In this document: positions 7,006 to 45,904 of the stretch, piece by piece
Layout of the letters: every line of letters begins with the position of its first letter
How positions within the stretch are numbered: the first letter of the stretch is position 1
From: Macrotis lagotis
Lineage: Eukaryota; Chordata; Mammalia; Peramelemorphia; Peramelidae
DNA: 64,000 nt
Assembly (NCBI RefSeq): GCF_037893015.1
Contig: NC_133666.1
Location: 623,793,352 to 623,857,351 of the forward strand
Direction: 5' to 3'
Notes under the pieces: model-generated
Databases searched by the model: none
What the model saw: the letters and a program-made list of their open reading frames with translations, nothing else
What the model was told of the DNA's origin: nothing
Translations under genes and position numbers: made by a program

Positions 7006-7137
7006 CTAGATGGACAATAAAGGAAAAGAGCATGAGGAAGACTTGTGTTTGCTTATAACCAGAAGAAATGAGGCAATACTGAAGGAGACCTTGAAGATAA
7101 GTGAGAAAAAGGGGAGGATAACCCATAAAGCATGGTC
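7006..7137 (-). CDS. Probable TCR-mu transmembrane / cytoplasmic exon
   Basis: Seen: a strong acceptor (TTCTTCCTACCTTCTCCAG) followed by an open frame DHALWVILPFFSLIFKVSFS... of 43 codons and a TAG stop at 7006. A hydrophobic stretch with one lysine in its middle is followed by a basic SKHK tail. Known: TCR chains have a membrane segment with a central basic residue that pairs with CD3, then a very short tail. Problem: the connecting-peptide exon ends in phase 1, but this acceptor is phase 0. A weaker acceptor at 7194 (exon from 7193) would be in phase 1 and add a stretch with two cysteines (QQMCTC) that could serve an interchain bond. A small extra exon in between is also possible. The membrane-exon identity is likely; its exact 5' edge is not settled. 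Confidence 0.5.
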   Translation of the reverse strand, partial: DHALWVILPFFSLIFKVSFSIASFLLVISKHKSSSCSFPLLSI

Positions 7138-7685
7138 CTGGAGAAGGTAGGAAGAAATAATACTAATGGCACAGGTACACATTTGCTGATTTTCTTCATT
7201 GAAATTTAGCATCCCAGGACTAGGAAAGAGAAGGGAAAAGGTAGGGATCACATATGCTGAAGACCTATAGTTCAAGAATGGGGGAGGATCAAAGAACCAA
7301 TATGGCAGGGAAACATCAAGGGGTCATTTGGTGCAGGGTAGATATAGGGTTACCAGAGTAGCTAAAAAGACCAGTGAGGCTAGGAATCAGCTTTTCTCCA
7401 CTCTGAGCTTTGGGCTGGCATGTTCCTTGAATTTTGGATCTTCACACAGTCTGAAGGTCTGGGTCATCACTCCCTACAGTCTCTAAGCCATTACTCAAAC
7501 TGTGCCCTACAATTTGTACCATGTTCTCTGTGCTGGGCTAGGGTCATGAGGAACCCTGTGATATCACATTATCACATTGGGTGACACAGAGATTGTCAGA
7601 CTGGGTTGGATAGTCTCACTTCTGATCAAATTGTTCAGGATTAATTTCATTATTTCTGCCTTTTCACCTTTTGCCTTTAACTCAC

Positions 7686-7730
7686 CTGAGAACTCCTCAT
7701 CAGGATTGGATATTTCCAGCTTCATAGAAT
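7686..7730 (-). CDS. TCR-mu connecting-peptide exon
   Basis: Seen: acceptor ACTTTCATTCTGCCTTCAG, a 45-nt exon reading (D)SMKLEISNPDEEFS(G), and a near-perfect donor CAG/GTGAGT. It is phase 1 at both ends, so it joins in frame to the C exon at 8036-8299. Known: TCR constant regions have a short phase 1-1 exon here (45 nt in the alpha chain). It is acidic and, unlike many connecting peptides, has no cysteine. The frame also stays open past the donor, down to 7564, but with no recognisable content. The call rests on splice sites, phase, length and position. Confidence 0.75.
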
Positions 7731-8035
7731 CTGAAGGCAGAATGAAAGTATCAGACACAGTCTTGAAGTCCAGTGAGCCCAGGTCTCCTCATTAGCCAGG
7801 TTCCCCCCATTATCTAATCTAGAATCCCCATCTCTAAGTTATGGATTCCCCTCTCTCAATAAGGAAACACTCGTCTGTAATGAAATTTTCTACCCGAGAA
7901 CTCCTTGTCCAGTCCAGGACTAATAGGGACCCCTCCTCACTCTACAGTACTCCTCCCTTCTCCCTGCTTCTATCCCTCAGTAATCCAGAAGTCACCAGAT
8001 ATCTCTTCTTGTACCATCCCTTTTCCCAGGCATAC

Positions 8036-8299
8036 CTGGCTGGTGGGATACAGAGGTATTCCTAAGGTGCTGCTGCACTGAACAGGTTACTGGGTTATTC
8101 TCACCAACCCTGCCAATATGGACAGCACTATAGGTGCCATGGACTGTGGGAACCACAACAAGGGACTGGTCTGAGACTGAGGTCCAAGGGGAGGCCAGGT
8201 ACACTTGGAGCTCCTTGGGATAGAAATCATTGACCAGGCAGGCCACAACATCCTGACTCCTCACCAGGAATACACTGGGTGACAGGAGGGTCTGAAGAC
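8036..8299 (-). CDS. TRMC: TCR-mu constant (C) domain exon
   Basis: Seen: acceptor TATGGTTTGATTTTAG, 264 nt open, donor CCAG/GTATGC, phase 1 at both ends. The protein has the C1-set pattern: SPSVFLV near the start, first cysteine in VVACLVNDFYPKEL, second cysteine in NPVTCSVQQH, about 57 residues apart. Known: the text resembles the TCR delta C domain most (its ACLV..FYPK and SVTCSVQ blocks), and marsupial C-mu is described as delta-related. This exon would be the membrane-proximal Ig domain and the contact for CD3. Context: it sits 592 bp 3' of the joined Vmu-j exon (8892-9245) and 305 bp 5' of the connecting-peptide exon. It has no stop codon or frameshift. C-delta itself is the main alternative, but a germline-joined V exon directly upstream is specific to TCR-mu. 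Confidence 0.92.
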
Positions 8300-8891
8300 C
8301 TAAAATCAAACCATAGCTTTGTGTCATTCAGCTGGCCCATAAAAGGTATCATACAAGCCTGCACCACAGACTCGGTTGTGAGATGGCACGTATGTGACCA
8401 AATAACTGTGAAAAACAACCCTCAGCCACTTCCTGGCCCCTTATCAGCCCTGGTCTGTCCCCTTGTGTAGAGTAAAAACTTATGAGATCAAATAATTGTG
8501 ACAACCAGACCCAAGCCCTTGCCTCAGCTTGGCTTTGATGTCCCAGTTTACATGCTGTGCTGATCCCAGACCACAAATCCTTTTTATCTTCTGTCACTGG
8601 GACTGACAGGGGTCTTAAGATTTCACATGTGGCTATTTTGAGTCCATGGACCTTATTGGGATGTGACTCAAATTCCTTCAGTGACTTACTACAATCCACC
8701 TCCAGAATAACTATTCAGAGTTGGTTTACTAGTTCTATACGGTTACACAACCCACTGCAGTGGAAAGAGAAGTCCGAGAAAAGGGGGAACCTGTTTCTGA
8801 CCTGGGCACCAGCATGGACTTAGCATAGCCCATTGGGTACCCAGACTTAACATAGCCTATTCCTTAGGGTTAAGACACATGAGGCACTCAC
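8300..8891 (-). other. Intron between Vmu-j and C-mu
   Basis: This 592-bp span runs from donor G/GTGAGT at 8891 to the acceptor at 8300. No SINE or L1 has inserted. The open frames at 8349-8699 and 8557-8823 look like chance frames in intron. Confidence 0.8.
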
Positions 8892-9245
8892 CCAATTCTA
8901 CTGTCACAGCTGTCCCAGGACCAAAGACCAGTTTGTCCGTGTCACTTCTGTCACCCACTCTCTTTGCACAGTGATAATTGCCAGAGTCCCCAAGGCCCAG
9001 ATGCTTAATCTGAAGGGAAATCTGACTTTCATTGTCTTCCCTGGAGGAGATGATGCGACTTTCATTGGTTTCTGCAGAGGTATTGTCAAGACTGGACAGC
9101 CACTGAGGAGCATGTCCAGAATCCCAAAGGTACCAACCTAATATACTTGTCTTGAATTGGAAGCCAGAGGTTTGGCACTTGAGGTTTAGAGTCCGGTTGT
9201 GTGAATAGAGTCCTCCTCCTAACTCTTTCAACCCAATGTTTTCCG
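8892..9245 (-). CDS. TCR-mu germline-joined V-J exon (Vmu-j)
   Basis: Seen: acceptor TATAATTTCTTCTCTGTGCAG, a 354-nt open exon and donor TTGG/GTGAGT, phase 1 at both ends. It encodes a whole V domain: first cysteine in NLKCQTSGF, core tryptophan in LGWYLW, DSGNYHC with the second cysteine, a CDR3-like stretch AKRVGDRSDTDKLV, then the J motif FGPGTAVTVEL. V and J are already fused, with no heptamer or nonamer in or at the end of the exon. It has four N-glycosylation sequons (NRT, NTS, NES, NES). Known: opossum TCR-mu has such a pre-joined second V domain, thought to come from germline V(D)J joining. Role inferred: a fixed domain between the assembled V-D-J domain and C-mu. It has no leader of its own that I could find. 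It is intact. Confidence 0.94.
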
Positions 9246-9859
9246 CTGCACAGAGAAGAAATTATAGGAGTAACTAGGGGCAATTTAACCATTCTGCTCC
9301 CTAGAAATGGATCTTGATTCCTTAAACCTCTTGAACCTCACTCTTCCCTGGACAAATCCTCCCATTCAACTTTAGATATCTAGTTTAGGATCCATTTCTC
9401 TTTAGTCATTTACATGGCTCCCAGCTCTTCAAAAAAAGGTCACACTTGAAAAGTGGCAAGATTTAGGAAATCCCAGAGGGTCAAAGATCCTGGATTTGAG
9501 GGGTAGGAGTAGGGATGTTCTTTTGGTCTCCCAGAGTCTCAGAGATCCTCAGGATTGGAAGAGTATCATGAGGGTAATAAATTCCAGGACCTTTGTGTTT
9601 GTAGAACTGGACAATTCTCAGAGAAAGGGGGTATTAGGGGAAAAGGCTGAAGATGGGAACTGGTCCACTTAATGAGTTGAGCACAAAATGACTGGAACTA
9701 TCAGCCTAGTTTCAGGTTTCCCCCACAACCCTGCCACCAAGGGGATCATCCCAAAAGTAACAGCCTAGTTAATTGCCCTCTGAAGTTTCAATGAGTGAGA
9801 TTCCCTTGAGCAGTTCCCCCCACCCCTCTACACATATGACTGGGAATATGGAAACTTAC
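9246..9859 (-). other. Intron between J-mu and Vmu-j
   Basis: It runs from the J donor GTAAGT (9859-9854) to the Vmu-j acceptor at 9246. I read the minus strand looking for a leader exon that could start a short Vmu-j-only transcript and found no convincing one. Confidence 0.75.
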
Positions 9860-9909
9860 ATGAAAGCACCTTCACTGCTGTTCCTGGCCCAAAGTCATCC
9901 CACGTATCT
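9860..9909 (-). CDS. TRMJ: TCR-mu J segment
   Basis: Seen: a 50-nt segment next to an RSS, reading DTWDDFGPGTAVKVLS, with the F-G-x-G J motif, then a strong donor T/GTAAGT. It ends in phase 1, which matches the phase-1 acceptor of the Vmu-j exon 614 bp downstream. Role: it completes the somatically joined first V domain and is then spliced to Vmu-j rather than directly to C. The final TAVKV resembles TAVTV in the joined exon, as expected if they share ancestry. I saw no second J. The context leaves little doubt. Confidence 0.92.
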
Positions 9910-9937
9910 CACTGTGACACAAGAAGGAACCTAAACT
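9910..9937 (-). promoter_or_regulatory. 12-RSS of the J segment
   Basis: Read outward from J (plus strand): heptamer CACTGTG (9910-9916, 6 of 7 consensus), 12-bp spacer, nonamer ACCTAAACT (9929-9937, 6 of 9). RAG would cut at the 9909/9910 border. It can pair only with 23-RSSs, here those 3' of the D segments or of V. Confidence 0.88.
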
Positions 9938-10191
9938 CTTCAGTCTTGGGTGGTAGGGAGGGAACCAGGAGATGGCAGGAAGTGGGCTAGAGTAGGGGGA
10001 GGGGAAGAATAAAGGAAATTAGTGACAAGGACATATAGGGTCAGATTTATGGGTACTCAAGAAGCTCATCAGACCCTTAAAAAATGGGGAATTCCATAGG
10101 GGATTCTGACCAAAGCCAGATCTAACTAAGTCTCAAAAGCTTTTCTAAGATCATCCTCTTGAAAAGACTTATTATAAGCAAGTCAGACTTA

Positions 10192-10330
10192 AGTTTTTTG
10201 CAAGGCAACAGGGTTAAGTGATTTGCCCAAGGTCATACAGTCAGGCAATTATTAAGTGTCTGAGGTCAGACTCCAGCATCTGACTCCAATAGAGCCAGTA
10301 CTCTATGCACTGTGCCACCTAGATGCCCCA
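10192..10330 (-). mobile_element. Marsupial SINE, antisense, old
   Basis: From TTTTTTGCAAGGCAACAGGG to GTGCCACCTAGATGCCCC, diverged and with several small gaps. AAGTCAGAC lies on both sides (about 10180 and 10332) and is probably the duplication. Confidence 0.8.
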
Positions 10331-10492
10331 ACAAGTCAGACATTGTGAAAGAATGAGTCTTTGCTATAAATTAGAACAGCTCTCCACTTGATTCTAGGAA
10401 TGTCTACCTGAATTCCTGTTCTTTGCACCTTACCAATTCAACAGTGAGAGAGAGAATGTTCTATCTCTGGGATATGATAAAGTAATAATAAT

Positions 10493-10727
10493 CAATTAAT
10501 GACTAATTATTAATATAAAGTGCTTGCAGAGCACTTTACAAATATTTCATTTCATTCTCAGGACAATCTTAGCAAGAAGTTTATTATTAATCCCATTTTA
10601 CAGTTGAGGTAACTGAGTCCAAAAAGGTTAAATTGCACAGTTAGTAAGAGCTTAAAGCAGGATTTGGACTCAGGTCTTCTTGACTCCATAACCTGCACTC
10701 TATTCATTGTACCATCTAACTGCCTAC
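10493..10727 (-). repeat. MIR/Ther SINE, antisense
   Basis: Carries the MIR-type series AAAGTGCTTGCAGAGCACTT, CCCATTTTACAGTTGAGGTAAC and GTCTTCTTGACTCC in antisense order. Old and diverged. Confidence 0.75.
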
Positions 10728-11910
10728 CTATATGGAATCATCAATGAAGGATGCATAAAGGGAAGGGAAATACAGAAGGATACATCCTAGTATCTTGTGG
10801 CAAACCAAGTAATAGTCAGGAGTAGGATTTGGGGTCCCTGAAATCCAACTGTAGTGCCCCCAAAGAGCACCCAGCTATGTCTTTGAACCTCAGCTGGTAG
10901 AGCAATCTTTCTAGATCCTTGAGGAATATTTATATTAGTGATCCTATTGGTGTTATTTGAGGTTACCAATTCTCCCAGGAAGTTTGGGAATTTTTGAGCT
11001 GATAAATTCTCCTGAAATGTTTCATGAGACTTGAGCTGATCAATTATAAAAAGTTGTAGAAGTTCTTCTCTGACATATCTGATAGTGCTATTTCTCAAAG
11101 AGATTTGGTTGTAGTGGGACCTCAGTAACAATGATATTCCTTGTCATAAGCTATGTTCTTTACGTGTTCAGTGAAACATGGTTTAAGGGGGAAAGTAAAT
11201 ATTGACAGAGCCAAGAGAATTGATCAAATGGGATTTCTCAATACAGTTTTTTAAATTAATCTATTTTCTTTCCCTCCTACCTTGCCTTCCTTATATATAA
11301 CATATTATATATGCAATATAATATATAATATAATAAATAATATATTTAAATATTATAATATGTAATAAAATAAAAACAAAACCTGTAACAAAAAGGCACA
11401 GTCAAATAAAACAAATCCCTACATTGGCCATTTACCAAAAAGAAAAAGTCTCATTCTGCCCTCTGAGTCCATCAACTCTCTGCCAAGAGATAGGTGACAT
11501 TCCTTATCATCAGTCTTCTTTCATTGTAATTCTTAAGTCTTTCAAAGTTGGCTGTCTTTACAATGTCACTGTTATTGCTTAAATCATTCTCTTCTTTGTC
11601 CTCTTTACACTGGAAGCTCACTTTACCCACGACCTTCTCACCCTTCTCACCTTCTCACCTGTGTCCTTGGAGACCCTTTCTCTGATTGAGCAGTTCCTCC
11701 CCCAATCTCAGTGTCCAGACCATCTCTATCTTCATTTCTTTCTCAGTTTTACTCTTGACCCTCTTAAGTATTTTCCATTATCTTCCTGTTCTTCTTCACC
11801 TTGGGAATTCATTCCATCCCTTCCCTGTACATATACACACAGATACACACAGAGACAGAGAGACACACATTCACATACATACCTTTTAGTTTTCTTTTAT
11901 AGTTGCCTAC
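10728..11910. other. No gene recognised; includes AT-rich tract
   Basis: A highly AT-rich tract with repeated ATATAATAT spans about 11288-11370, and CACACAGAGACAG-type simple sequence spans 11826-11878. The open frames at 10787-11131 and 11661-11927 have no recognisable domain. Confidence 0.45.
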
Positions 11911-11914
11911 CTCA

Positions 11915-12030
11915 TCTTCTCCCATAAGTTCCCTGAGGGGAAAGAATGTCTTTTTTGCTTGAATTTATATTCTTAATACCTTGCACAGCTTCTGGTACAT
12001 AGTAAAGTATTTAATAAATGTTTGTTGACT
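11915..12030 (+). repeat. L2 LINE 3' end
   Basis: TTCCCTGAGGGGAAAGAATG, then CTTGCACAGCTTCTGGTACA and AATAAATGTTTGTTGAC: the usual L2 tail order. Confidence 0.65.
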
Positions 12031-12039
12031 TTTGGTTCC

Positions 12040-12645
12040 ACTCATTTCATTCTACACAACTCATATGTCTTCCTGATATCCTCTGAAACTGTTCCTTTCT
12101 CATTTCTAGTAGCACAATAGTATTCCATTATATTTATACACCATTATTTTTTTTCAGTCATTCTCTAATTCATGGGCACTCCCTAAGTTTCCAATTCTGT
12201 GTCCCTATTTTTTTTAAAAAAAGAGCTGCTATGGTTTTGTATGTATATATTCTTTTCTTCTTTCTTTAAGATTTTTAAGATATAGACTTAGAAGTGTTAT
12301 TGTGAATCAAAGAATATAAACGACTTAGTAAGCTTTTGGAAATAGTTGTAACTTGTAATCTCTGGACTAATTAATTCATAGCTCCACCAACAGTGCATTT
12401 AGCATGCCTGTTTTTCCAAAGCCTCTCTAATAAGGTCTAATTTGTCATTTTCATTTTTTTGATCATCTTTACTGATCTGATTTGTGTGTGGTATAAATTC
12501 AGAATTCTTTAATTTACATTTCTCTAATTATTAACTTCTTTAATTAGTGAGCTGAAGCAATTTTTTTAATATGGCTATTGATAGCTTGAATTTTGTCCTT
12601 TGAAAACTGTCCCTTGATGATTTTTCATTTGGGTAATTACTTTTT
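12040..12645 (-). mobile_element. Old L1 ORF2 3' fragment, antisense
   Basis: In order it shows the antisense blocks CAATAGTATTCCATTA, AATTCATAGCTCCACCAACA, TTTACATTTCTCTAATTATT and ATATGGCTATTGATAGCTT, which match the young L1 copies in this window (for example 38.2-39.2 kb) but are much diverged. Confidence 0.7.
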
Positions 12646-12689
12646 ACTTATGCATTTGAATCAATTCCTTACATGGAAGATATTTTTGA

Positions 12690-13090
12690 GTGTATTTTAG
12701 GAGAGAGGGATAGCAATGACAGCATCTGATCTATGTTTTAAGAATATCAACTTGATAGTTGAATGATGGATGGACCATAAAATAGAAAGAGGAGGGATAG
12801 AGACCAATTACAAGACTTTTCCAATAGTCTAAAGGTGATAAGGCCTGATTTTAGATGGAGGTTGTCAATGGAAGAAAGAGAATGGAAATGAGAGATGGAC
12901 ATAGAATAAGCAACTTGATAACTGATTAGATATAAGGGTTGAGGAAAAGAGAAAAGTCAAGGATGAGAATCTTGTGATTAGAAAGTATGCTGATGTCCTA
13001 AACAAAAATTAGAAAATCTGGAGAAGGGATGTTTGGAGGGAAATAAGAGTCTGGATATGCTGAGTTTGGGGTGCCTATGATAGGAAAAAA
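12690..13090. repeat. Old interspersed repeat, family not named
   Basis: Shares phrase order with 6450-6760 and 40370-40660 (spaced 'AATTACAAGACTTTTCCAATAGTC', 'GTCAAGGATGAGAATC' style text). I cannot assign a family. Confidence 0.35.
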
Positions 13091-13336
13091 AAAAGATAAG
13101 TTTGTTACACTTAGGTAGAGGTTTGGTTTCTGATTCAGATAATCTAAGCAGCAATCTTATCTTACCTTGACAAGTAGTGTGTGACCATGAGCAAGTAACT
13201 AAACCTCTTAGTTTAAAAACAAGTAACTAAATCAACTAAAGTAGTTAACTAAACTCAACTAAACAACAAGTGTAGTATTGTTAGCCTTCATTAGCGGAAG
13301 AAGTTTGCATCCTGGGATGACCTCACACTATTGAAA

Positions 13337-14005: not shown

Positions 14006-15513
14006 AGGAAAAGAAAGGGATGGCCATCAGGAAGAAATACCTGACACAGGCACATGAAGAACAAGTCTCTCAGAGAAGTCCCAAAATAGTGATGATGAGG
14101 AGATATCTGAGTTGAATTTTTTCTTTAAATGGAAACTTGGAGTATATGGCCCTACCTTATAATCAGAGGGGGCAGAAGGTAGTGATGCAATGATGAGATA
14201 TTACATGATAAGATTATCACAATAATGAGCTTCCTAGTGTGAGGAATGTAGGATGTTTGGCTTCCACAGAATGTAAGAGGAGATTGTTAGTCTAGATATA
14301 AGGTCTATAATACTATACAGTTTCCTGTGTTCATTAGTATAATGACCAGGGTGAGGAAAACATTATTAGAGAATGGTATGGGGTGAGGGTATCATTTAGA
14401 TTATAACCCTGACCATGATAGGGAAGACCAAGCCTTTCAAACTACATATAAGACTAGACATTGTTGCAATTCATGGCCTTTTTCCAGTAGGGAAATTGGT
14501 CCTTCTTTACAGAAAGTTAATTAATAAATAGTTATTTTAATTATTCTGGACTAAATATTTATAATTAGGAGCCATTTATAACACTAAGATATGGTTGACA
14601 AATCAGTACAAGTCCCAAAATAGAACAGTAAGTGAAAAATTACATCTCTATGAATTTAAATGTAAGTTTATATATGAAATGGGTAACCGACCCCTTTCAT
14701 TCAGAGCTGGCCTGAAACCAGAGAAAGATGCAGGAAGAAGAGAAAATAAATTTTGAAAAAGGTAAAACAGGGGGCGGAGCCAAGATGGTGACAAGAAGGG
14801 ATCCAGTCTTAGGAGCTCTCTAATAAAACTCATAAGTTAAAGACTCTAACTAAACTTGCGAGAGACAGAACCCACAAAGGGACCCAGAGAGGCAGTTCTC
14901 CTACTCAAGGTAACCTAGAAAAGAACAGAAAGGCTCTGCTCCCTGGGGTCGGAGGGGCAGCCCGCCAGAGGGGTGGCCCGCCAGAGCCAAAGAACTTCAG
15001 CCTCCCGGAGGCAGCCCCAGGGCACTGGGAGCTGCTCCCAGCAGTGGGGGAGTCTCCTGAGCTGCACCACAGGGAGCACCCAGCACAAAGTGGGGGAACA
15101 GCGGGGGACCTCTGCCAGAGGGAGCACGTGGAGCCCAGCCCTCAGGACACACAGCCAGCAGCTTGGTCTTTCTGCAGCCCAGACCCGGAAACCAAAGTGG
15201 GCAGAGCTGGTAAGCAGGAGCCCCCAGGGCATAAGCCTATTGAGCTGAGGGAGTGGAGTGAAGAGAGAGACTGCCCAGCTCTGTCCTCTGCCTCTGGAAC
15301 AGGACTCTGGGGCTCTGACCACATTCAGATCCTGATCGCAGTCTAGGCCCCCCATAGAACAACAGGGCACCCCCACCTCAGCCCCGTGGCAGAGGGGGGC
15401 TCTTATGATCATTCACAGACCAGGAGGGAGGACAGAGCCTCACATACTGAGACCCTTGTGGGAGTGTCTCAAAAGCTCAGGAAGCACCCCAAAACCAGGA
15501 CCAGGCTGGGAAA

Positions 15514-16588
15514 ATGAGCAAGCAGAGAAATAAGAGGAAGACTATTGAGAAATATTTTGCAAATGAGCCCAAGAAGGATCAAAATACTCAGTTTGAAGAT
15601 GAGGAAGCACAAGGTCCTGCATCTAAAGACTCCAAGAAAAACAGAAATTGGGTTCAGTCTATGACGGAGCTCAAAAAAGACTTTGAAAATCAAATGAGGG
15701 AGTTGGAAGAAAAACTGGAAAAAGAAAGGAGAGAGATGCAGGAAAAACATGAAAATGAAGTCAGCAGCTTAGTCAAGGAAATCCAAAAAAATGCTGAAGA
15801 AAATAGCATGCTAAAAAACAGCTTAGGTCAAATGGATAAAACAGTTCAAAAAGGTATTGAGGAGAAGAATGCCTTAAAAAGCAAAATTGGCCAGATGGAA
15901 AAAGAGATAAGAAACCTCTCTGAGGAGAACAAATCCTTCAGACAAAGAATAGGATTCAGGGAGATTGATGAATTTACCAGAAATCAGGAATCAATACTTC
16001 AAAACCAAAAAAATGAAAAATTAGAAGGAAAATGTGAAATATCTCATTGAAAAAACAACTGATATGGAAAACAGACTTAGGAAAGATAATTTGAAAATTA
16101 TTGAAATACCTGAAAGTCATGATCAGGAAAAGAGTCTTGACATCATTTTCAAAGAATTACTACAGGAAAATTGCCCTGATATTCTAGAAGCAGAGGGCAA
16201 AATAGAAATGGAGAGAATCCACCGATCCCCCAGAGAAAGAGATCCCAAAAAACCAACCCCCAGGAATATTATAGCCAAGTTCCAGAACTCCCAAGTCAAA
16301 GAGAAAATATTACAAGCAGCCAGAAGGACACAGTTCAAATATCATGGAGGTGCAGTCAGGATCACACAGGACTTAGCAGCAACTACATTGGAAGCTCCTA
16401 GGGCTTGGAATGCAATATACCAGAAGGCAAAAGAGCTTAGAATGCAGCCAAAAATGAACTACCCAGCAAGGCTGAATGTCCTCTTCCAGGGAAAAAGATG
16501 GACTTTCAATGAACCAGGGGAATTTCAAATGTTCCTTTTGGAATGGCCAGAGCTGAACAGAAGGTTTGATCTTCAGATACAGGACTAA
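15514..16588 (+). pseudogene. ORF1 of the HAL1-like LINE, one frameshift
   Basis: Encodes an L1 ORF1-type RNA-binding protein of about 357 codons. It has a basic N terminus, a long charged coiled coil (roughly residues 40-150, rich in E, K, L), then an RRM-like region (IERIHRSPRERDPKKPT-type block, NIIAKFQ) and a C-terminal domain (QDLAATTLEA, NYPARLNVLFQGKRWTF). The reading frame shifts at about 16027: one extra G relative to the second copy in this window splits it into 15514-16050 and 16034-16588. Known role of the family: trimeric RNA chaperone that packages the element's RNA. The copy is nearly intact and so fairly recent, but cannot make a full protein as it stands. Confidence 0.85.
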
Positions 16589-24022: not shown

Positions 24023-24033
24023 TATCCCAGTTA
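24023..24033 (-). other. TRMD: TCR-mu D segment (D2, J-proximal)
   Basis: An 11-nt segment reading TAACTGGGATA on the coding (minus) strand, flanked by a 23-RSS on its 3' side and a 12-RSS on its 5' side. Both spacers have exactly the required length, and the nonamers match at 9/9 and 8/9. Its G-rich core resembles mammalian delta D segments. It lies between V and J in the right order and orientation. Role inferred: part of CDR3 of the somatically joined domain. The region around it has no nearby L1 or SINE within 400 bp. Confidence 0.9.
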
Positions 24034-25780: not shown

Positions 25781-27483
25781 TCCAAAAAATTACTTTAACA
25801 AGTTAGAAAAAAATTGTAAGTAAATTCATATGGAGAAATAAAAAGTCAAGAATTGCCAGGAGCTTAATGAAAAAAAGTGAAAAAGAAGGTGGCTTAGCCC
25901 TACCAGATCTAAAATTATATTATAAAGCATCAGTCATCAAAACTGTTTGGTATTGGCTAATAGAGTGGTGGACCAATGGAATAGACGAGGTGTAAAAGCA
26001 GGAGAGGATTATAGTAATCTGCTGTTTGATAAACCCAAAGAGTCTGGCCATTGGGATAAAAACTCCCTCTTTGATAAAAATTGCTGGGAAAATTGGAGGT
26101 TAGTATGGAAGAAACTTAGATTAGACCAACACCTCACACCCTTTACCATGATAAGATCCAAATGGTTACAGGACATAGACATAAAAAACAATACTATAAG
26201 CAAATTAGAAGATCAAGGACTAGTCTACCTGTCAGATCTATGGAAAGGGGAACAGTTTATGACTAAGGAAGAGTTGGAGAACATCACCAAAAACCAATTA
26301 GATGATTTCAATTACATTAAATTAAAAAGCTTTTGCACAGATAAAACCAATGTAACCAAGATCAAAAGAAATGTAGTAAATTGGGAAATGATCTTTACAA
26401 CTAATGATTCTGACAAAGGACTCATTTCTAAAATATACAGAGAACTGAGTCATATTTTTAAAACAAAAAGCCATTCCCCAGTTGACAAATGGTCAAAGGA
26501 TATGCAAAGGCAATTTACAGATGAGGAGATCAAAGTAATCCATAGCCATATGAAAAAATGCTCTAAATCATTAATTATTAGAGAAATGCAAATTAAAGCT
26601 TCCCTGAGGTACCACCTCACACCTCTCAGATTGGCCAGTATGACCAGGAAGGATTAATGATCATTGTTGGAAGGGATGTGGGAAATCTGGGACACTATTA
26701 CACTGTTGGTGGATCTGTGAACTCATCCAACCCTTCTGGAGAGCTATTTGGAACAATGCCCAAAGGGCAACAAAAATGTACATACCCTTTGACCCAGCAA
26801 TACCACTACTGGATCTATACCCTGAAGAGATGAGAAAAAGGGTAAAAACATTACTTGTACAAAAATGTTTATAGCAGCCCTGTTTGTGGTGGCAAAGAAT
26901 TGGAAATCTAGTAAATGTCCTTCAATTGGGGAATGGCTTAGCCAACTCTGGTATATGTATGTCATGGAACACTATTGTTCTATTAGAAACCAGGAGGGAT
27001 GGGATTTCAGGGAAACCTGGACGGATTTGCATGAACTGATGCTGAGTGAGATGAGCAGAACCAGAAAAATACTGTATACCCTAACAGCAACATGGGAGTG
27101 ATGTTCAACCTTGAAGGACTTGCTCATTCCATCAGTGCAACAATTGGGAACAATTTGGGGCTGTCTGCAAAGGAGAGTGCCATCTGCATCCAGATAAGGA
27201 GCTGTGGAGTTTGAACAAAGTACAAGGACTATTCCCTTTAATTTGGAAAAAAAAAAAAAAGATACCTTATTGTCTGATCTTGTTACCTCTGAGAATTCTG
27301 TTCTCTTTAAGGATATGATTTCTCTCTCAACACACCCAATTTGGATCAAGGTACAACATGGAAACAAAGTAAAGACTGACGGAGTGTATTCTGTGGGGGG
27401 GGGGGGGGGGAGGGAAGCAAGATTGGGGGAAAAATGTACAACTCAAATAATATCTTTAATAAAAAATAAATTTAAATTAAAAA
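25781..27483 (+). mobile_element. 5'-truncated L1 (ORF2 3' part) inserted in an L2
   Basis: Contains the C-terminal third of ORF2 in broken frames (25947-26657 open; a stop and frameshifts follow, with 26865-27101 open), a G-run and an A-rich end. The 14-bp duplication AAAGTTCAGTTCAA flanks it at 25767-25780 and 27484-27497. Confidence 0.9.
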
Positions 27484-33399: not shown

Positions 33400-33556
33400 G
33401 GGGCAGCTAGGTGGCGCAGTGGACAAAGCACCGGCCCCGGAGTCAGGAGTACCTGGGTTCAAATCTGGTCTCAGACACTTAATAATTACCTAGCTGTGTG
33501 GCCTTGGGCAAGCCACTTAACCCCATTTGCCTTGCCAAAAAAAGCCTTAAAAAAAA
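33400..33556 (+). mobile_element. Marsupial SINE next to an L1
   Basis: Near-consensus copy. AGACCTTTC flanks it at 33391-33399 and 33557-33565, and a third copy of this 9-mer lies at 34711-34719 after the neighbouring L1. Confidence 0.92.
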
Positions 33557-33565
33557 AGACCTTTC

Positions 33566-34710
33566 TTTTTGCACAGGTAAAACCAATGTAATCAAAATCA
33601 AAAGAAAAGTAGTAAATTGGCAAACAATCTTTACAACTAATGATTCTGACAAAGGACTCATTTCTAAAATATACAGAGAACTGAGTCATATTTTTAAAAC
33701 AAAAAGCCATTCCCCAATTGACAAATGGTCAAAGGATATGCAAAGGCAATTTACAGATGAGGAGATCAAAGCTATCCATAGCCATATGAAAAAATGCTCT
33801 AAATCATTAATTATTAGAGAAATGCAAATTAAAGCTTCTCTGAGGTACCACCTCACACCTCTCAGATTGGCCAGTATGACCAGGAAGGATAATGATCATT
33901 GTTGGAAGGGATGTGGGAAATCTGGGACACTATTACACTGTTGGTGGAGCTGTGAACTCATCCAACCCTTCTGGAGAGCTATTTGGAACTATGCCCAAAG
34001 GGCAACAAAAATGTGCATACCCTTTGACCCAGCAATACCACTACTGGGTCTATACCCTGAAGAGATGAGGAAAAAGGGTAAAAACATTACTTGTACAAAA
34101 ATATTTCTAGCAGCCCTGTTTGTGGTGGCAAAGAATTGGAAATCCAGTAAATGCCCTTCAATTGGGGAATGGTTTAGCAAACTGTGGTATATGTATGTCA
34201 TGGAATACTATTGTTCTATTAGAAATCAGGAGGGACAGGATTTCAGGGAAACCTGGAGGGATTTGCATGAACTGATGCTGAGTGAGATGAGCAGAACCAG
34301 AAAAACACTGTACATCCTAACAGCAACATGGGAGTGATGTTCAACCTTGAAGGACTCGCTCATTCCATCAGCTCAACAATTGGGAACAATTTTTGGCTGT
34401 CTGCAAAGGAGAGTACCATCTGTATCCAGATAAGGAGCTGTGGAGTTTGAACAAAGTACAAGGACTATTCCCTTTAATTCGGAAAAAAAACCCAGATGTC
34501 TTATGGTTTGATCTGGTTACCTCTGAGAATTCTGTTCTCTTTAAGGATATGATTTCTCTCTCAACACACCCAATTTGGATCAAGGTACAACATGGAAACA
34601 AAGTAAAGACTGAGGAGTGCTATCTGTGGGGTGGGGGTGGGGGAGGGAAGCAAGATTGGGGGAAAACTGTAAAACTCAAATAATATCTTTAATAAAAATT
34701 TTTTAAAAAA
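33566..34710 (+). mobile_element. 5'-truncated L1 (ORF2 3' end)
   Basis: Starts inside ORF2 (TTTTTGCACAGGTAAAACCA), carries the last 250 or so codons open to 34337, then the 3' UTR with a G-rich tract and A-rich end. It shares its target duplication (A5)GACCTTTC with the SINE directly upstream. The frame reads on from the SINE, which creates a 279-codon chimeric frame (33498-34337) that is not a gene. Confidence 0.9.
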
Positions 34711-37365: not shown

Positions 37366-37371
37366 GGTTAA

Positions 37372-38209: not shown

Positions 38210-38246
38210 TAAGTTTTTAATATATGACTCACTCACAAGGAAGTTT

Positions 38247-39217
38247 TTTTATAAAGATTTTATTTATTTTGAGTTTTAAAATTTTCCCCCTAATCTTACC
38301 TCCCTCCCCCCACCCCACAAGGAAGGCAATTTGTCAGTCTTTTACATTGTTTCTATAGTATACATTGATCCAAATTGAGTTTGAAGAGAGAGAAATCACA
38401 TCCTTAAGGAAGAAACATAAAGTATAAGAGATAGCAGGATCAGATAATAAGATGACAGGTTTTTTTCCTAAATTTAAGGTAATACTCCTTGGTCTTTGTT
38501 CAAACTCCACAGTTGTTTCTCTGTATATAGATGGTATTCTCCATTGCAGACAGCCCAAAATTGTCCCTAATTGTTGCACTGATGGAGGTTGGTCATCACC
38601 CCATGTTGCTGTTAGGGTGTACAGTGTTTTTCTGGTTCTGTTCATCTCACTCATCATCAGTTCATGCAAATTCTTCCAGGCTTCCCTGAATTCCCATCCC
38701 TCCTGGTTTCTAATAGAACAATAGTGTTCCATGACATACATATACCACAGTTTGCTAAGCCATTCCCCAATTGAAGGACATTTACTTAATTTCCAATTCT
38801 TTGCCACCACAAACAGGGCTGCTACAAATATTTTTGTACAAGTTTTTGTACAAGTTTTGTACATGTTTTTACCCTTTTTCATCATCTCTTCAGGGTATAG
38901 ACCCAGTAGTGGCATTGCTGGATCAAAGGGTATGCATATTTTGTTAACCTTTGGGCATAGTTCCAAATTTCTCTCCAGAAAGGTTGGATGAGTTCACAGC
39001 TCCACCAACAATGTAATAGTGTCCCAGATTTCCCACAACCCTGCCAACAATGATCATTATCCTTTCTGGTCATATTGGCCAGTCTGAGAGGTGTGAGATG
39101 GTACCTCAGAGAAGCTTTAATTTGCATTTCTCTAATAAGTAATGATTTAGAGCAATTTTTCATATGACTATAGATTGCTTTGATCTCCTCATCTGTAATT
39201 TGCCTTTGCATATCCTT
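38247..39217 (-). mobile_element. 5'-truncated L1, antisense
   Basis: ORF2 C-terminal part (frames 38882-39211 and 38334-38966) and a short 3' end. The 14-bp duplication TCACAAGGAAGTTT flanks it at 38233-38246 and 39218-39231. It cut off the older L1 fragment at 38.2 kb. Confidence 0.92.
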
Positions 39218-39231
39218 TCACAAGGAAGTTT

Positions 39232-39941
39232 AATCTAGCATTGGAGTAAAGGCAAAATGTGACTGAAGAGGAAATGCAGCAGGATCTAGTAGAAGGAGAT
39301 TATTAGAATGATCAAGGCAGATTCTAATTAACTGTGAGAGTAGGGTGGAGGAAGTAGAAAGAAAGAAGAAGGAATGAGGAAGAAACATGGAAAATGTCAC
39401 TAAATAGGAATCTCCTTAAACATCTCCAGTCTGCTTTAAAACTTCTAGGGGTAAGGGATTCTTCATTCCCTCTCAAGCCATTCCATTCCACTTTGAGACA
39501 ATTCTAATAATTTAAAAAGTTCTTCCCCACATGAAACCCAAACCTTCCTGCCTAAAACTATCCCTCATCACTCCCAGTTCTGCCTTCTAGGTCAAGGTTT
39601 AAAACAAAGTCTAATTTCTCCCCTGCTTGCCATTCTAGCAAACATGAAAGAACTAGGATCCCTCTGATTAGCTACCCTCAATTGTACCTAACAATAGCCA
39701 TTTAAGTTTAGTAAGAGAACCACCATAGCCAGGCCTCAAGGTCATTTCTAGGCAACATTACTGTTTGGATCAAATGATCTCAGGCCAGGGATAATGAACC
39801 CATAGTCAAGAAAGTTCCATCAACTCTACGACCTGATTCAATAGGAGAAGAAAGTACCTAGGGTGTGTCTAAGTAGAAGTGAAATATAGGTGTGCTTCCT
39901 ATACATATTCTCCTCACCCCACTCCAACCGAGTGACTGACT
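39232..39941. other. No gene recognised
   Basis: Single-copy-looking DNA just 3' of D1 in the sense of the TCR-mu gene. No further RSS pair seen. Confidence 0.45.
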
Positions 39942-39980
39942 GGTTTCTGCCCCAGGTGTTCCTGAGGTTTCATCATTGTG
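39942..39980 (-). promoter_or_regulatory. 23-RSS on the 3' side of D1
   Basis: Plus strand: nonamer GGTTTCTGC (39942-39950, 7 of 9), exactly 23 bp, heptamer CATTGTG (39974-39980). The heptamer is the same as that of D2. It can pair with the 12-RSS of D2 or of J. Confidence 0.82.
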
Positions 39981-39997
39981 AGCTTGAACTTAGTCTA
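39981..39997 (-). other. TRMD: TCR-mu D segment (D1, V-proximal)
   Basis: A 17-nt segment, TAGACTAAGTTCAAGCT on the coding strand, between a 12-RSS on the 5' side and a 23-RSS on the 3' side with exact spacer lengths. It lies 5.2 kb 3' of the V exon and 16 kb 5' of D2, same orientation. It contains an in-frame stop in two frames (TAG at the start, TAA inside), which is common in D segments and removed or avoided by trimming and frame choice. Its RSS nonamers are weaker than those of D2. Confidence 0.8.
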
Positions 39998-40025
39998 CAC
40001 AGTGATACATGCCTTACCTTAAACC
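39998..40025 (-). promoter_or_regulatory. 12-RSS on the 5' side of D1
   Basis: Plus strand: perfect heptamer CACAGTG (39998-40004), 12-bp spacer, nonamer CCTTAAACC (40017-40025, 6 of 9). It is the expected partner of the V 23-RSS. Confidence 0.82.
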
Positions 40026-40665
40026 CTAGGTGTGGTAGGGTCTGTGGAAGTTGTTCTCAGATGATTGACAGGACCCTGAAGTGTATTAGTAGAGTGAACT
40101 TCAAAAAGGAGAACTCGCTGATTGATGGTAGTAGAGGGACAGATTGAAAGTGGCAATGTCCCTCACCTCAACTAGGGGATCTATGGAATAAGTAAAAGTG
40201 AAGGCAATGCTGGGGACAGGAAAACTGTGTCATCAGGAGGGGACTAGATCTCAGTGAATGCAAGATAGGGAGAGTTCAAGCTGGGAAGGACTTTACATGT
40301 CAAGCAAACAATTTCTTATTTCATTCTAAAACTAATAGAGAATTTCTAGAACTCACTAAGCAAAAAAGCAACATAGAACTTTGTGAATTTTGGCAGCCAA
40401 GTGAAAGATGAACTGGAATTTGAGGAGAGACAAGACAAGAACATGAACCAGAAGGTTATAACATAAGTCCAGGCTTGAGGGCCTGTATCAGGGCAGTTAC
40501 AGTGTTAATAGAGAGAAGGAGGTAAATGCAAGATATGTTGTGAATGTAAAAATAAGATTTGGATGAGATTGGATGGGGGGGTGATTATGAGTGAAGGACA
40601 CTAAGATTGTCAAATTGAGTGGTTAAGATATGGATGGTGCCTTCAACAGTATTAGGGAAGTTAAA
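40026..40665. repeat. Mixed; old interspersed repeat from about 40370
   Basis: 40366-40669 resembles the unnamed old family at 6.5 and 12.8 kb (GGCTTGAGGGCCTGTATCAG, AAGATATGTTGTGAATG). This is the part missing from the fused copy at 38.1 kb. Confidence 0.4.
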
Positions 40666-40669
40666 AAGA

Positions 40670-41130
40670 GGAAAGGAAAAACCTAGAAAGACTTTTATGA
40701 ACTGCTGCAAAGTGAAGTGAGCAGAACCAGGAGAATAATGTACACAGTAACAGCACATATTGTATAATGGATCAACTATGAATAGACTTGGCTGTTTTCA
40801 GTAATATAATGATTCAAAAAAATTCCAAAAGATATACAAAGAAAAATGCTATTCATCTCCAAAGAAAGAACTGGTGGAGTCCAAATGTAGTTTAAAGCAT
40901 ACTTTTCAAAAAGTCCTATTTTTCTTGGGGTTTTTTGGTCTCTGTTCTTTTACAGTATGACTAATATGGAAATATTTTGCATTTTTGCATATGTAGAACT
41001 TATATCAAATTGCTTGTCTTCTCAATGAGGAGGATATAAGGAGAGTATTTGGGACTCAAATTTTTTAAAAAGGATGTTTAAAATTGTTTTTTATATTTAA
41101 TTGGGAAAAATAAAATACTAAATAAAGAAA
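40670..41130 (+). mobile_element. Older L1 3' end
   Basis: TTTTATGAACTGCTGCAAAG, GAGCAGAACCAGGAGAATAA, then a 3' UTR ending in ATTGGGAAAAATAAAATAC. Same class as the piece at 27930-28410. Confidence 0.7.
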
Positions 41131-41535
41131 GAAGGAAGGTTTTAGGGGAAAGGATAATGAATTCTGCCTTGAATATATCGAGTTTGAGATTCCTTATAAG
41201 ACTTCCAGGTTGAGACATGCAAAAGGCAGTTGGTGATATGGGACTAGAGCCCAGGAGAGGTCAAAACTGCATATACAGCTCTGGGAGTCATTCTCATAGA
41301 TATAATAATTGAATCTATGAGATAAGATCACCAAATAAGATGACAACAGGAAGAAGAGAGACCAGAACAGACTCACAGTTAGAGGGTACAACCTGGATGA
41401 AGATTCAGCAAAGTAGACTGAAAAAAGAGTGATGAGACAAGTAGGGGAAGACTCAGAAAAGAGTAAAAATATAGAGGGGAAGAAATATGAAGAGAGGTAT
41501 CAAAGACTGCCAGCAGGTCAAGAAGGATGAAGCCA

Positions 41536-41680
41536 GGGGCAGCTAGGTGGCACAGTGCATAGAGCACCAGCCCTGGAGTCAGGAGTACCTGGGAGACACT
41601 TGATAATTACTTAGCTGTGTGGCCTTGGGCAAGCTACTTAACCCCATTGCCTTGCAAAAAATAAAAAATAAATAAATAAA
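41536..41680 (+). mobile_element. Marsupial SINE with an internal deletion
   Basis: Lacks the box-B block between ACCTGGG and AGACACTT. Target duplication (G/A)GATGAAGCC at 41526-41535 and 41681-41690. Confidence 0.88.
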
Positions 41681-42032
41681 AGATGAAGCCTAAGAAAGAA
41701 TGACTAAATTTGGCAATTAAGAGATCACTGCTAATTTTAGAAAGAGCAGTTTTAGCTGGATGATATCAGAAGCCTGATTATAGAGGATTTGCAAGCATAT
41801 GAAAGGAGAAAAAGTGAAGCTACTTTATATATATGGCTTTCTCAAGAATTTTGGGCAAGAAAGATATTAGCTTTTACCAAAGGTGAATAGTAAGATGATA
41901 TAGTATGAACAGTTCTCACATAGTTTTCCCTATATAGATCCCAGGCACACTCTCTACAATATACAAAGCCCATGAGACAAAGGGGCTGAAATGTAGAGCA
42001 TGATGATAGTGAGATACATAACAACAACTGAA

Positions 42033-42150
42033 AAGGCAGCAGATAGTACAGTGGAGAAAGTACTGAACCTGGAGCCAGGAAGAACTAAGTTCAACTCCGA
42101 CCTCAGATACTTAATAATTACCTAGTTGTGCGTCCTTGCCTTGCAAAAAA
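42033..42150 (+). mobile_element. Marsupial SINE, 3' truncated or gapped
   Basis: GGCAGCAGATAGTACAGTGG to CCTTGCCTTGCAAAAAAAG with the GGGCAAGCCACTTAACCCC block lost. Confidence 0.75.
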
Positions 42151-42639
42151 AGAACAATCCATTCCATTTTTGAATGGATGTTCTTTTTTGGTTGCCAAAA
42201 AGAGTGCTACTAGGAATATTTTGCTTTGTACAGGATCTTTCTTTTTGTCATAGACCCCTTTGGGGGTATGTGGCTATTAGTGAGACACTGCCAAAGCATA
42301 TGAACAGTTCAATGGCTTCTTTCATGTTCTTCTACATTGTTTTCCACAGCATAGCCCTATAAGCTAATAAGCAATTAAAATTCGCACTGGCCTTCTATCA
42401 CCCATTCAAAAAGTATAACTTAAAACTTCATCCACATCATTAAAGAGGATTCAAAGATTGCTTGAAAATGATACCAGAGATCCATGCAGCTGGTGTACAG
42501 GTTCTATACATTATGGGTACCTAGAGAGAATATTTAGCCTACTGCAACTGCACAAACTCTTTAGAGAGGATGCAAAAGTTCATGAACACAATACTCAGGT
42601 TCTAAAAGAGATGCACAGGAATGATGCTCTTCAATCCAC

Positions 42640-43010
42640 TGGCCTCCTTGGTTCTCTTTGAGTAAGAGACTCCCTCTTTTGGCTTCAAGTATTTTCTCTG
42701 ACTGTTCCCCTGTGCCTAGAAGGATGTCCTTCATCATTTCCAGCTGCTGGCTCCCCTGACTTCTTTTAAGTCCCAACCTAAATCCCCTCTTTTACAGAAA
42801 GCCTCTTCCAATGCCTCTTAATTCTAATGCATTCCTTCTTTTATTTCCTATTTATCCTGCATATAGCTAGTTTATGTATATTGTTTTCATCCTCTTTAGA
42901 CTATGAACTACTTGAAGGAAGGGTTTTGTCTGTTTTTATATCTCTAGTACTCGGCACTGTACCTGGAACATAGTAGATGTTGAATAAGCTGACTGATTGA
43001 TAATCTTCTT
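42640..43010 (+). repeat. L2 LINE 3' end
   Basis: TTTTAAGTCCCAACCTAAAT, AGAAAGCCTCTTCCAATGCC, GAACATAGTAGATGTTGAAT in L2 order. Confidence 0.75.
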
Positions 43011-43812
43011 CCCTGGATGAATATTATAAACATAATTCTAGTAAAACTTTAGCATGCTGCCCCAATATTTTTAATGTCTCCATGAATACATATATATTCA
43101 TACATACACACAGAGCCAATCTTTTGGTCTCTTAGTTGCTTTTCATTGAGCACCAAATCTTCCCTTACTCTTCCTTCCCCCAGTCTATGCCTATTACACT
43201 TTCACATCTCTGATTCATCAAGGCTTATAAGGTCAATGAAGTTACCTGATTATTGGTAACCACCTTGTGCTCTGAATTGGAACTCTGAGATATTTCCTCC
43301 CTAGGAACTTTTAGGTAACCAATACTCTTCCTAGAAGAATGTGACCAATCTTAATTCCCTACATTCTTTGTTATAGTTGAAATACTGAAGGACAGAGGCA
43401 TCCTTCTTGAAAGCTAGTGAAAACTGAAGGTCAGGTCCCTAACTGTACTCATTCAGGTAGGTCTGGTCCCTGACTTATTCTTATTAAAATTTCAGAAACT
43501 AGTAAGCTAACTAGAAGCATGTTTGATTTCTATACTGTATTTACATTAAGCACATGAGCTTTCTCATGGCTCCTAGAAAAGGGATCTCTAATGTTCTCTG
43601 AGGCCCCCTATAATTAACATTGAGAGGGTTAAGCAAATGCTTAACACCCCAGGCCAAGAGAATTTAAGACTACCTTAAATATCTAGAAGTTTTGCATATT
43701 CTCTTTGCAAATTCTCTTTAAAATTGATACTTGAAAATGATTGTGCTAGAATTCACAACTAGCTCATGTTACAAATCCAATGAGATGAATGTATTGCAAA
43801 TTTGCCTTCCTG

Positions 43813-44535
43813 ACTACATCCAAAGGGCAACAAAATGTGCATACCCTTTGATCCTGCAATACCACTACTGGGTCTATACCCTGAAGAGATGATGAAAATA
43901 GTAAAAACATTACTTGTACAAAAATATTCATAGCAGCCCTGTTTGTGGTGGCAAAGAATTGGAAATCAAATAAATGTCCTTCATTTGGGGAATGGCTTAG
44001 CAAACTGTGGTCTATCTGTATCATGGAACACTATTGTTCTATTAGGAAACCAGGAGGGACAGGAAGTCAGGGAAGCCTGGAGGCATTTGCATGAACTGAT
44101 GCTGAGCAAGATGAGCAGAACCAGAAAAACACTGTACACCCTAACAGCAACATGGGGCAATGATCAACCTTGATGGACTTGCTCATTCCATCAGTACAAC
44201 AATCAGGGACAATTTTGGGCTGTCTGCAATGGAGAATACCATCTGTATCCAGATAAAGAACTGTGGAGTTTGAACAAAGTTCAAGGACTATTTCCTTTAA
44301 TTTAGAAAAAAAAAACCCAGATAATCTTATTATCTGATCTTGTTATGTCTTATACTTTTTGTTTCTTCCTTAAGGATATGATTTCTCTCTCATCACACTC
44401 AGTTCAGATCAATGTACAACATGGAAACAAAGTAAAGACTGAAAAATTGATTTCTGTGGGGGGATGGGGGAGGGAAGTAAGATTGGGGGGGGGAAATGTA
44501 AAACTCAAAATAAACAAAATCTTTAATAAAACAAA
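43813..44535 (+). mobile_element. 5'-truncated L1 (last part of ORF2 and 3' UTR)
   Basis: Flanked by TTGCCTTCCTG at 43802-43812 and 44536-44546. ORF2 frame is broken (43943-44173 open). Confidence 0.9.
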
Positions 44536-44559
44536 TTGCCTTCCTGGTTCACTGGCTTC

Positions 44560-44752
44560 CTATTTGTTTTTGACTCTGAGACCCAATTTGGGTCATTTTA
44601 CAAACAAGGAACTGAGGCAAACAGGATTAAGTGACTTCCCCAGAGTCACACAGGTAGTAAGTATCTGAGCCCTCCAGATTTGAATTCAGGAATAGTAGTC
44701 TTCCTGACTTCAGGCCTGACATTCTATCCACTATGCTACCTTCCAAGCTCCT
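44560..44752 (-). repeat. MAR/Ther-type SINE, antisense
   Basis: AACTGAGGCAAACAGGATTA, AGTCTTCCTGACTTCAGGCC, ATTCTATCCACTATGCTACC in antisense order. Confidence 0.75.
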
Positions 44753-45050
44753 CATAGAGTCTAACTATGGTAGATTCTTCAGAAACAAGGAACCTGTCAC
44801 TAATTCAGCACATTATGAAATGAATTTGTAAACCCTTGGAAAAGGCAAAGGAACTTCCTCTGTAGAAGTCATTTTGGTCAAGACTAATCAACCTGGCATT
44901 CACCCTGAGATTGATAGATGAGAGGGCATCAAATGAGAACAAAGCCACTAGGGATATGGAAAGGTGGTAAAGAAGAAAGTGGTGGAGAGAAGTTTTTTTC
45001 CTACTTGAAAGACAAATGACCACAGTTGGTCTCTGCCCCAATCTATAAAC

Positions 45051-45085
45051 ACAGACACACACACACACAGACACACAGACACACA

Positions 45086-45135
<50 letters not shown>
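45051..45135. repeat. (CA)n microsatellite beside the V RSS
   Basis: About 85 bp of CA with some ACAG variants, ending 110 bp from the V nonamer. The antisense frames through it are artefacts. Confidence 0.95.
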
Positions 45136-45137
<2 letters not shown>

Positions 45138-45244
45138 GTAGGTTTGTTTCTAAGAGGTTTCCCATGCCTGGGTTCATAGGTTAGGCAATAGTTGCCTGGT
45201 CAGATCAGCAGATTCACAGCTGTTGGGCAAGACTGGTTCTGTCT

Positions 45245-45283
45245 CAGTTTTGTGTCAGGGTCAGCCTGGGCTTCCATATGGTG
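45245..45283 (-). promoter_or_regulatory. 23-RSS of the V segment
   Basis: On the coding strand: heptamer CACCATA (45283-45277; only CAC and one other base match the consensus), 23-bp spacer, nonamer ACAAAACTG (45253-45245, 6 of 9). Position directly after GCAAGACT and the exact spacer length support it. The heptamer is weak, so V use may be low. Confidence 0.8.
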
Positions 45284-45593
45284 AGTCTTGCACAATAGTA
45301 AATGCCTGAGTCCTCCTTCTGCAGATTGTGCAGAGTCAGTGAGACAGTGCTGGCCTCATTGTTTCTGAAAATGAAGGCTCTATTCCGAATGCCTTTCCCA
45401 TAGACCTGCTTTTCACCTGCCGCAGCAGTGATACTGGCCACAAACTCTCTGGAGCGTCCAGCTGGTCTCCAGTGCCACGAAAAGGAAAAATCCTTAAAGC
45501 GGAGTCCTGAGGCTTTACAGGTCAGGGTCAAGTTCTGACCCTCATAAATCATTTTGCCTCCTGTCTCCACCAGCTGCACCTGGGTCCAGGACC
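45284..45593 (-). CDS. TRMV: TCR-mu V segment (IGHV-like), V exon
   Basis: Seen: acceptor TCCTTCTGTGTGTCCTCTGCAG, then a 310-nt open exon (phase-1 start) that ends at an RSS. It encodes QVQLVETGG at the start, first cysteine in LTLTCKASG, core tryptophan in SFSWHW, VSLTLHNL and EDSGIYYCAR with the second cysteine: a complete V domain of immunoglobulin heavy-chain type. Known: opossum V-mu genes are IGHV-related, whereas C-mu is delta-like. Odd: the framework-2 WVRQ motif is replaced by WHWR, and the next residues are PAGRSREF. One N-glycosylation sequon (NLT) is present. Role: after joining to D and J it is the outer, variable domain of the chain. It could be an IGHV orphon, but D and J segments with matching RSS in line on the same strand argue for TCR-mu. 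Confidence 0.93.
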
Positions 45594-45834
45594 CTGCAGA
45601 GGACACACAGAAGGAGAAGGTCAACCCCACACTGAACCCTTTGGAAAGGAAAGATGAAGGACTAGGACAAAGATACCAGAAAGCTAATGAAAGACTGGGT
45701 CTCATATCCAGGCTGCTCAATCCATTAGATAAGGAAAAATGGGAACAGAGAGGAACAGAAATATCTGGAAACTAATTGAAGGTCATACACACAAATCCAG
45801 GAAGAGGGAAGGAAAGGAATGAGGACAGAGATAC
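45594..45834 (-). other. Leader intron of the V segment
   Basis: 241-bp intron between donor TCAG/GTATCT and the V acceptor. The frame 45244-45720 runs through its 3' end by chance. Confidence 0.78.
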
Positions 45835-45904
45835 CTGAGAAATTACAGACCAGTAGTCCAAAAAGGTAGGCCCTGGAAAGAGTATTAAGGCTCCTGGTAA
45901 ACAT
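45835..45904 (-). CDS. TRMV: Leader exon of the TCR-mu V segment
   Basis: Seen: ATG at 45904, 23 codons with a basic start and a hydrophobic run (AYLFGLLVC), donor TCAG/GTATCT, phase 1, which fits the phase-1 V exon. An upstream in-frame ATG at 45916 would add MACK, and one at 45958 would add more. I chose 45904 because it gives a signal peptide of normal length. Role: ER targeting. Confidence 0.75.

Follow-up and report, generated by a model that had tools for sequence, protein, structure and literature searches.

Introduction

The closest described system is the T-cell receptor mu (TCR-mu) chain of the opossum Monodelphis domestica (PDB 7k0z, 7k0x and 7l15), encoded by the TRM locus (PMC2275272; PMC7615758). 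A marsupial TRM locus is expected to have zinc-finger genes on its 5' side and MOG on its 3' side. The parts it shares with the gene described here are a variable segment (Vmu), diversity (D) and joining (J) segments, a second V exon already joined to its J in the germline (Vmu-j, or Vj), a constant (C) exon, a connecting-peptide (CP) exon and a transmembrane (TM) exon. Opossum cluster 1 belongs to class I, clusters 2, 4, 6 and 8 to class II and clusters 3, 5 and 7 to class III, both partial clusters being class II (PMC7615758). According to PMC2275272, opossum class II clusters have two D segments and those of class III three, and only two clusters seem to be present in bandicoots. The shark NAR-TCR is also a double-V TCR chain, of independent origin according to PMC7615758 and PMC2275272.

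Here we analyse a 64-kb window (C9:623793352-623857351; NC_133666.1) from the greater bilby, Macrotis lagotis, a member of the same order as the bandicoots. The gene in it is almost certainly a TRM cluster consisting of Vmu, D, D, J, germline-joined Vmu-j, Cmu, CP and TM. This kind of gene was well described beforehand, and TCR-mu has previously been reported in the bilby: the text of the bilby genome paper identifies TCR-mu and counts nine TCR constant genes (PMC11239497). Among the top-ranked literature matches, which did not extend to the supplements of that paper, we found no published map of the bilby TRM locus. What is new here is a corrected exon map, the count and order of seven clusters, the name under which NCBI carries the gene, and a connecting peptide without cysteine.

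Results and Discussion

The identity of the cluster is supported by its homology. A 326-residue V-J-Vj-C query aligned with opossum TCR-mu 7k0z over residues 1-324 (7k0z_C; E 1.2e-126, 425 bits), followed by 7k0x at 420 bits and 7l15 at 279 bits. Among the 60 best matches listed, antibody V domains scored no more than 188 bits, and TCR-delta chains no more than 96 bits (1ypz_E). Pfam recognized V-set, V-set and C1-set domains in the window chain, all above the cut-offs. The Vj-C portion shares 61-62% identity with 7k0x/7k0z and 67% with K7DYV5 of the opossum; its nearest relative found is koala P0002 (NCBI "Ig heavy chain Mem5-like"), at 76%. The preliminary description had proposed TCR-mu from the order of the pieces, and the opossum alignment, the tandem array and the placement of the C exon all support it. 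Its further suggestion that the cluster can encode two V domains and one C domain is borne out by a frame open to the stop and by homology to opossum TCR-mu along the length of the chain.

Phylogenetic trees place the window in the same family. In the Vj+C tree (20 rows), it is sister to koala P0002 (93/81), the bilby branch being the longer one; Tasmanian devil P0016 (95/91, Vj only) comes next, followed by opossum K7DYV5 (99/94), and bilby cluster 2, described below, adjoins this group (100/99). The comparison of the C exon with C-mu and C-delta, which had been proposed earlier, gave a C-domain tree of 22 rows in which the window stands beside koala, devil and one further sequence, with marsupial TCR-mu and apart from the single TRDC row. 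The TRDC branch and the window branch (0.44) are both long, and the exact place of the window in this tree is therefore unsure.

The cluster runs from 45904 to 3966 on the minus strand, on which all its parts lie. The preliminary description had ended it at 7006, short of the true last exon. Of its nine ordered pieces, eight were correctly placed, from the leader to the connecting peptide, and the ninth, the TM piece, was not. The leader exon (45835-45904) encodes MFTRSLNTLSRAYLFGLLVCNFS and ends at the donor GTATCT; an octamer-like ATGCAAAT lies about 380 bp upstream of it. The Vmu segment (45284-45593) retains the Cys-Trp-YYC framework and shares 57% identity with its counterpart in bilby cluster 7. 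It is followed by a recombination signal sequence (RSS) with a 23-base spacer at 45245-45283, CACCATA - 23 - ACAAAACTG, which is weak (3+3 mismatches, counted manually). The J segment (9860-9909) encodes DTWDDFGPGTAVKVLS and has a 12-RSS at 9937-9910, AGTTTAGGT-12-CACAGTG, and the donor GTAAGT.

Two D segments lie between them. D1 (39981-39997, 17 bp) has a 5' 12-RSS at 40025-39998 and a 3' 23-RSS at 39980-39942; D2 (24023-24033, 11 bp) has a 5' 12-RSS at 24061-24034 and a 3' 23-RSS at 24022-23984. Both strands of the window were scanned for a 12-RSS, a D of 5-40 bases and a 23-RSS, allowing at most 6 mismatches per side. On the minus strand this returned two candidates, D1 and D2, with 4 and 6 mismatches of 32, and on the plus strand none. 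In 100 first-order Markov resamples, 25 contained any candidate, the best with 9 mismatches. The signals follow the 12/23 rule (V 23, D 12-23 twice, J 12), as had been reported at the outset, though with a weak V signal. With a 23-RSS on V and a 12-RSS on J, V-D-J, V-D-D-J and V-J joins would all be legal.

The second V is germline-joined in a single exon (8892-9245), preceded by AG, followed by GT and containing a built-in FGPGT J motif. Such a pre-joined second V had been attributed to TCR-mu of both marsupials and monotremes; this holds for marsupials, whereas in platypus the second V is built from V and J (PMC7615758). The C1-set immunoglobulin domain of Cmu occupies 8036-8299, and the connecting-peptide exon (7686-7730) encodes DSMKLEISNPDEEFS.

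A leader remnant (9292-9246) directly precedes the Vj exon. It is out of frame in the window, where stops immediately before the exon close the Vj frame; that frame is open back to an ATG in clusters 5 and 7. A leader-like stretch (e.g. MDGLPLLTL...) is continuous with Vj in 8 of 17 related predicted proteins, including NCBI models from other marsupials. The opossum produces a single-V isoform. If this isoform is a sound guide, cluster 1 would be limited to the double-V form, since stops close the old leader before its Vj.

The last exon, which encodes the TM segment and cytoplasmic end, lies at 3966-4078; it was overlooked in the preliminary description and is missing from the NCBI model. It starts at 4078 after TTTTAAAG, in phase with CP, and encodes VEFKRRNKLLLGVLSLRLLFMKTVAINVLFTVIALIF and a stop, with Arg and Lys within the membrane segment. 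All four marsupial TM-end queries match the window at 4070-3969, the best with 84% identity over 31 residues, and TM ends such as ...NKLLLSVLSLRLLFLKIVLINVLFTMIALIF occur in 10 of 14 aligned marsupial proteins. An equivalent exon lies in phase downstream of clusters 5 and 7. The only other listed match of these queries in the window (41764-41696) is weak (39%) and contains a stop. Spliced together, J-Vj-C-CP-TM comprise 275 codons, the final one being the stop. The phase compatibility noted earlier as far as CP therefore extends to the stop; all junctions are in phase 1 and have GT/AG splice sites.

The TM piece initially proposed (7006-7137) sits within the CP-TM intron; its acceptor at 7138 opens a frame that does not continue that of CP, and at 7137-7009 no match of the four TM queries exceeded 22 bits. 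An in-phase acceptor at about 7202 was also considered as a TM start and rejected, as it seems a poor site and no homologue follows it. Before the TM exon, two splice acceptors, AAG followed by TAG, stand in tandem at 4079-4075, 3 bases apart and both in phase. Candidate AATAAA polyadenylation signals on the same strand (3574-3663) have their first bases at 3663 and 3579.

Anatomy, frame, homology and tandem setting were determined in this analysis; for rearrangement, expression and pairing we follow published opossum work. In a developing T cell, RAG would join Vmu, D1, D2 and J (23 / 12-23 / 12-23 / 12) into one V exon, which would be spliced to the germline-joined Vmu-j exon and then to C, CP and TM. 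The resulting chain would sit in the membrane, with an outer V domain that is diverse, an inner one that is invariant, and a single C domain. The Arg and Lys of its membrane segment would dock CD3, and by analogy with the opossum the mu chain would pair with a TCR-gamma chain.

Judged from its sequence, the cluster looks intact, an apparently complete and ordinary TCR-mu copy in a tandem row of copies that would work by the known marsupial TCR-mu mechanism. Several features weigh against this view. The chief one in the sequence, as regards full function, is the weak Vmu signal: by manual count its RSS has 6 of 16 mismatches, the highest number among the four bilby Vmu compared (clusters 1, 2, 5 and 7), cluster 7 having 2 and clusters 5 and 2 having 3 each. 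The connecting peptide DSMKLEISNPDEEFS lacks the cysteine of the interchain disulphide, which clusters 2, 3, 5 and 7 carry; at the aligned position the window has Asn, koala P0002 Cys and opossum K7DYV5 Tyr. We did not treat this cysteine as defining TRM, as K7DYV5 also lacks it. The C exon branch is long. The dN/dS of C, from 0.58 to 0.62 in four pairs of the window with other bilby clusters, is the highest of the four parts, although still below 1. Finally, the NCBI model has no leader, V or TM.

It is possible, although we consider it unlikely, that this TRM cluster has recently been crippled, with its exons still open and a Vmu RSS too weak to recombine efficiently, so that it contributes little or yields only sterile J-Vj-C transcripts. 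This would be a special case of the TCR-mu identification. The RSS being the weakest of the four inspected, the lost cysteine, the long C branch and an NCBI model that begins with an exon at 11925 and joins J-Vj-C-CP would all be in keeping with it. Against it, open frames with GT/AG splice sites are kept in the leader, in V and from J to TM, and the other three bilby Vmu read also have imperfect heptamers. Pairwise comparisons of the window with other bilby clusters also count against it: dN/dS was below 1 in all four parts, at 0.26-0.30 for V (3 pairs), 0.20-0.33 for Vj (4 pairs) and 0.20-0.35 for TM (2 pairs) besides the values for C, although these values average both branches and are no proof of present-day use of the window copy. 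Clusters 5 and 7, compared with each other, give a dN/dS of 1.04 for C, and C is therefore on the whole under no strong constraint in the TRM locus.

The two remaining alternatives would replace the TCR-mu identification and are both exceedingly improbable. A TCR-delta locus with antibody-like V genes (VH-delta) could account for a C exon that resembles TCR-delta at a low level (1ypz_E), but it was rejected in view of the far higher TCR-mu score, the homology of V, Vj and C to TCR-mu, the presence of a Vmu-j exon, the position of C outside the single TRDC row and the tandem repetition of V-D-J-Vj-C clusters. An immunoglobulin alpha heavy chain gene, as implied by the NCBI name "immunoglobulin alpha-2 heavy chain-like" and by the kinship of Vmu to a group of V genes that we infer to be IGHV, was rejected as well, since there is one C domain, nearest to TCR-mu, where several C-H exons would be expected, the TM with its Arg and Lys is of TCR and not immunoglobulin type, Vj is germline-joined, and the same chain has been solved as TCR-mu in opossum.

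That V kinship emerged from a whole-genome Vmu search, which gave 41 rows. Five Vmu and four Vj belong to the TRM locus; of the others, 23 are on C1, six are on C4 and three lie near 700 Mb of C9. Thus, 23 of the 32 rows outside the TRM locus, the best ones included, fall at C1:438.2-439.7 Mb, adjoining multi-domain immunoglobulin-type constant exons. With this C1 group taken as IGH, Vmu would have its closest kin among IGHV and not among V genes of other kinds. The six distant V-like rows on C4 (C4:183344204-183514371), together with one weak C-like row at C4:183287617, are perhaps a conventional TCR locus.

Over the 207 residues of the Vj-C query from the window, the NCBI bilby protein P0001 shows 100% identity. 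After the J-Vj-C-CP joins described above, its last exon matches window position 3064. TCR-mu relatives in eight other marsupials also bear immunoglobulin names in NCBI.

The cluster had been called the only host gene in the 64 kb. No other was noticed in the window; the gene does not stand alone in the genome, where seven copies with a C exon were found, itself included. LINE-1 pieces on both strands lie between and upstream of the segments (14813-16588, 25926-26657, 33486-34337, 38334-38993 and 60291-63415). Of ten long open reading frames tested, Pfam confirmed three as LINE-1 at its cut-off (two ORF1, one reverse transcriptase), and we take the remaining seven to be L1-like. An Rfam search of the 64-kb window gave no match.

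A whole-genome search with the C exon gave nine rows, of which seven are TCR-mu C exons on C9, all on the same strand as the cluster in the window, and two are weak matches elsewhere. This search replaced a Pfam C1-set genome search, which had shown two of the seven and missed the window's own. The locus spans C9:623.31-623.84 Mb, about 526 kb from leader 1 to TM 7. Cluster 1, in the window, is the 5'-most found. Paired by position, the V and C coordinates on C9 are 623792397 and 623760906 for cluster 2, 623743992 and 623700818 for cluster 3, 623537434 and 623465195 for cluster 5, and 623386114 and 623315341 for cluster 7.

Clusters 4 (C at 623557789) and 6 (C at 623406422) are broken. Both have a stop in C and group with cluster 2, and the whole-genome Vmu search found no Vmu for either. 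The two copies (C9:623557789-623559082 and C9:623406422-623407678) resemble each other at 90% in Vj and 94% in C. Four minus-strand, RSS-flanked D candidates each, alike in pairs, were seen in clusters 7 (C9:623329650-623356736) and 5 (C9:623490120-623525032); they were assigned by position, and the weakest have 7 and 8 mismatches.

Nucleotide identities from a gap-lenient aligner run high and were replaced by a Vj+C DNA tree of all seven clusters. This tree resolves {2,4,6} and {3,5,7} with support of 100 and 99, and sets cluster 1 apart. The bilby arrangement is therefore opossum-shaped: both loci have tandem clusters, with one 5' cluster apart followed by two alternating groups, and partial copies without V. 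They differ in number: seven clusters were found in the bilby, of which five have a V and two are broken, whereas the opossum has eight, six of them complete. The Tasmanian devil TRM locus shares the tandem clusters and the three classes; it has nine clusters, three of them partial, and mixed tandem and single duplications in place of strict alternation (PMC7615758).

By their place, cluster 1 may be class I and cluster 2 class II. Class II would, however, fit the two D segments of cluster 1, as in opossum class II (PMC2275272). Membership of a class calls for more than 75% identity, at the nucleotide level, with one of its opossum clusters. A broader proposal has two parts: that the 5'-most cluster encodes a functionally distinct receptor, pairing with TCR-gamma without a CP disulphide and in the bilby made in the double-V form only, and that a single cluster set apart, then a repeated pair (2-3-2-3-2-3), represents the ancestral order for opossums and bandicoots, with a derived order in the devil. 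That both parts hold together seems doubtful to us.

Conclusions

The present analysis gives an exact, testable exon map of a TCR-mu cluster in a marsupial of the bandicoot order. NCBI carries this TCR-mu gene under an immunoglobulin alpha name, with V and TM left out of the model. The locus count, seven C-bearing clusters of which five have a V, comes from an order whose bandicoots, according to PMC2275272, seem to have no more than two clusters. The order of the cluster groups in the bilby bears on how the TRM locus was duplicated.

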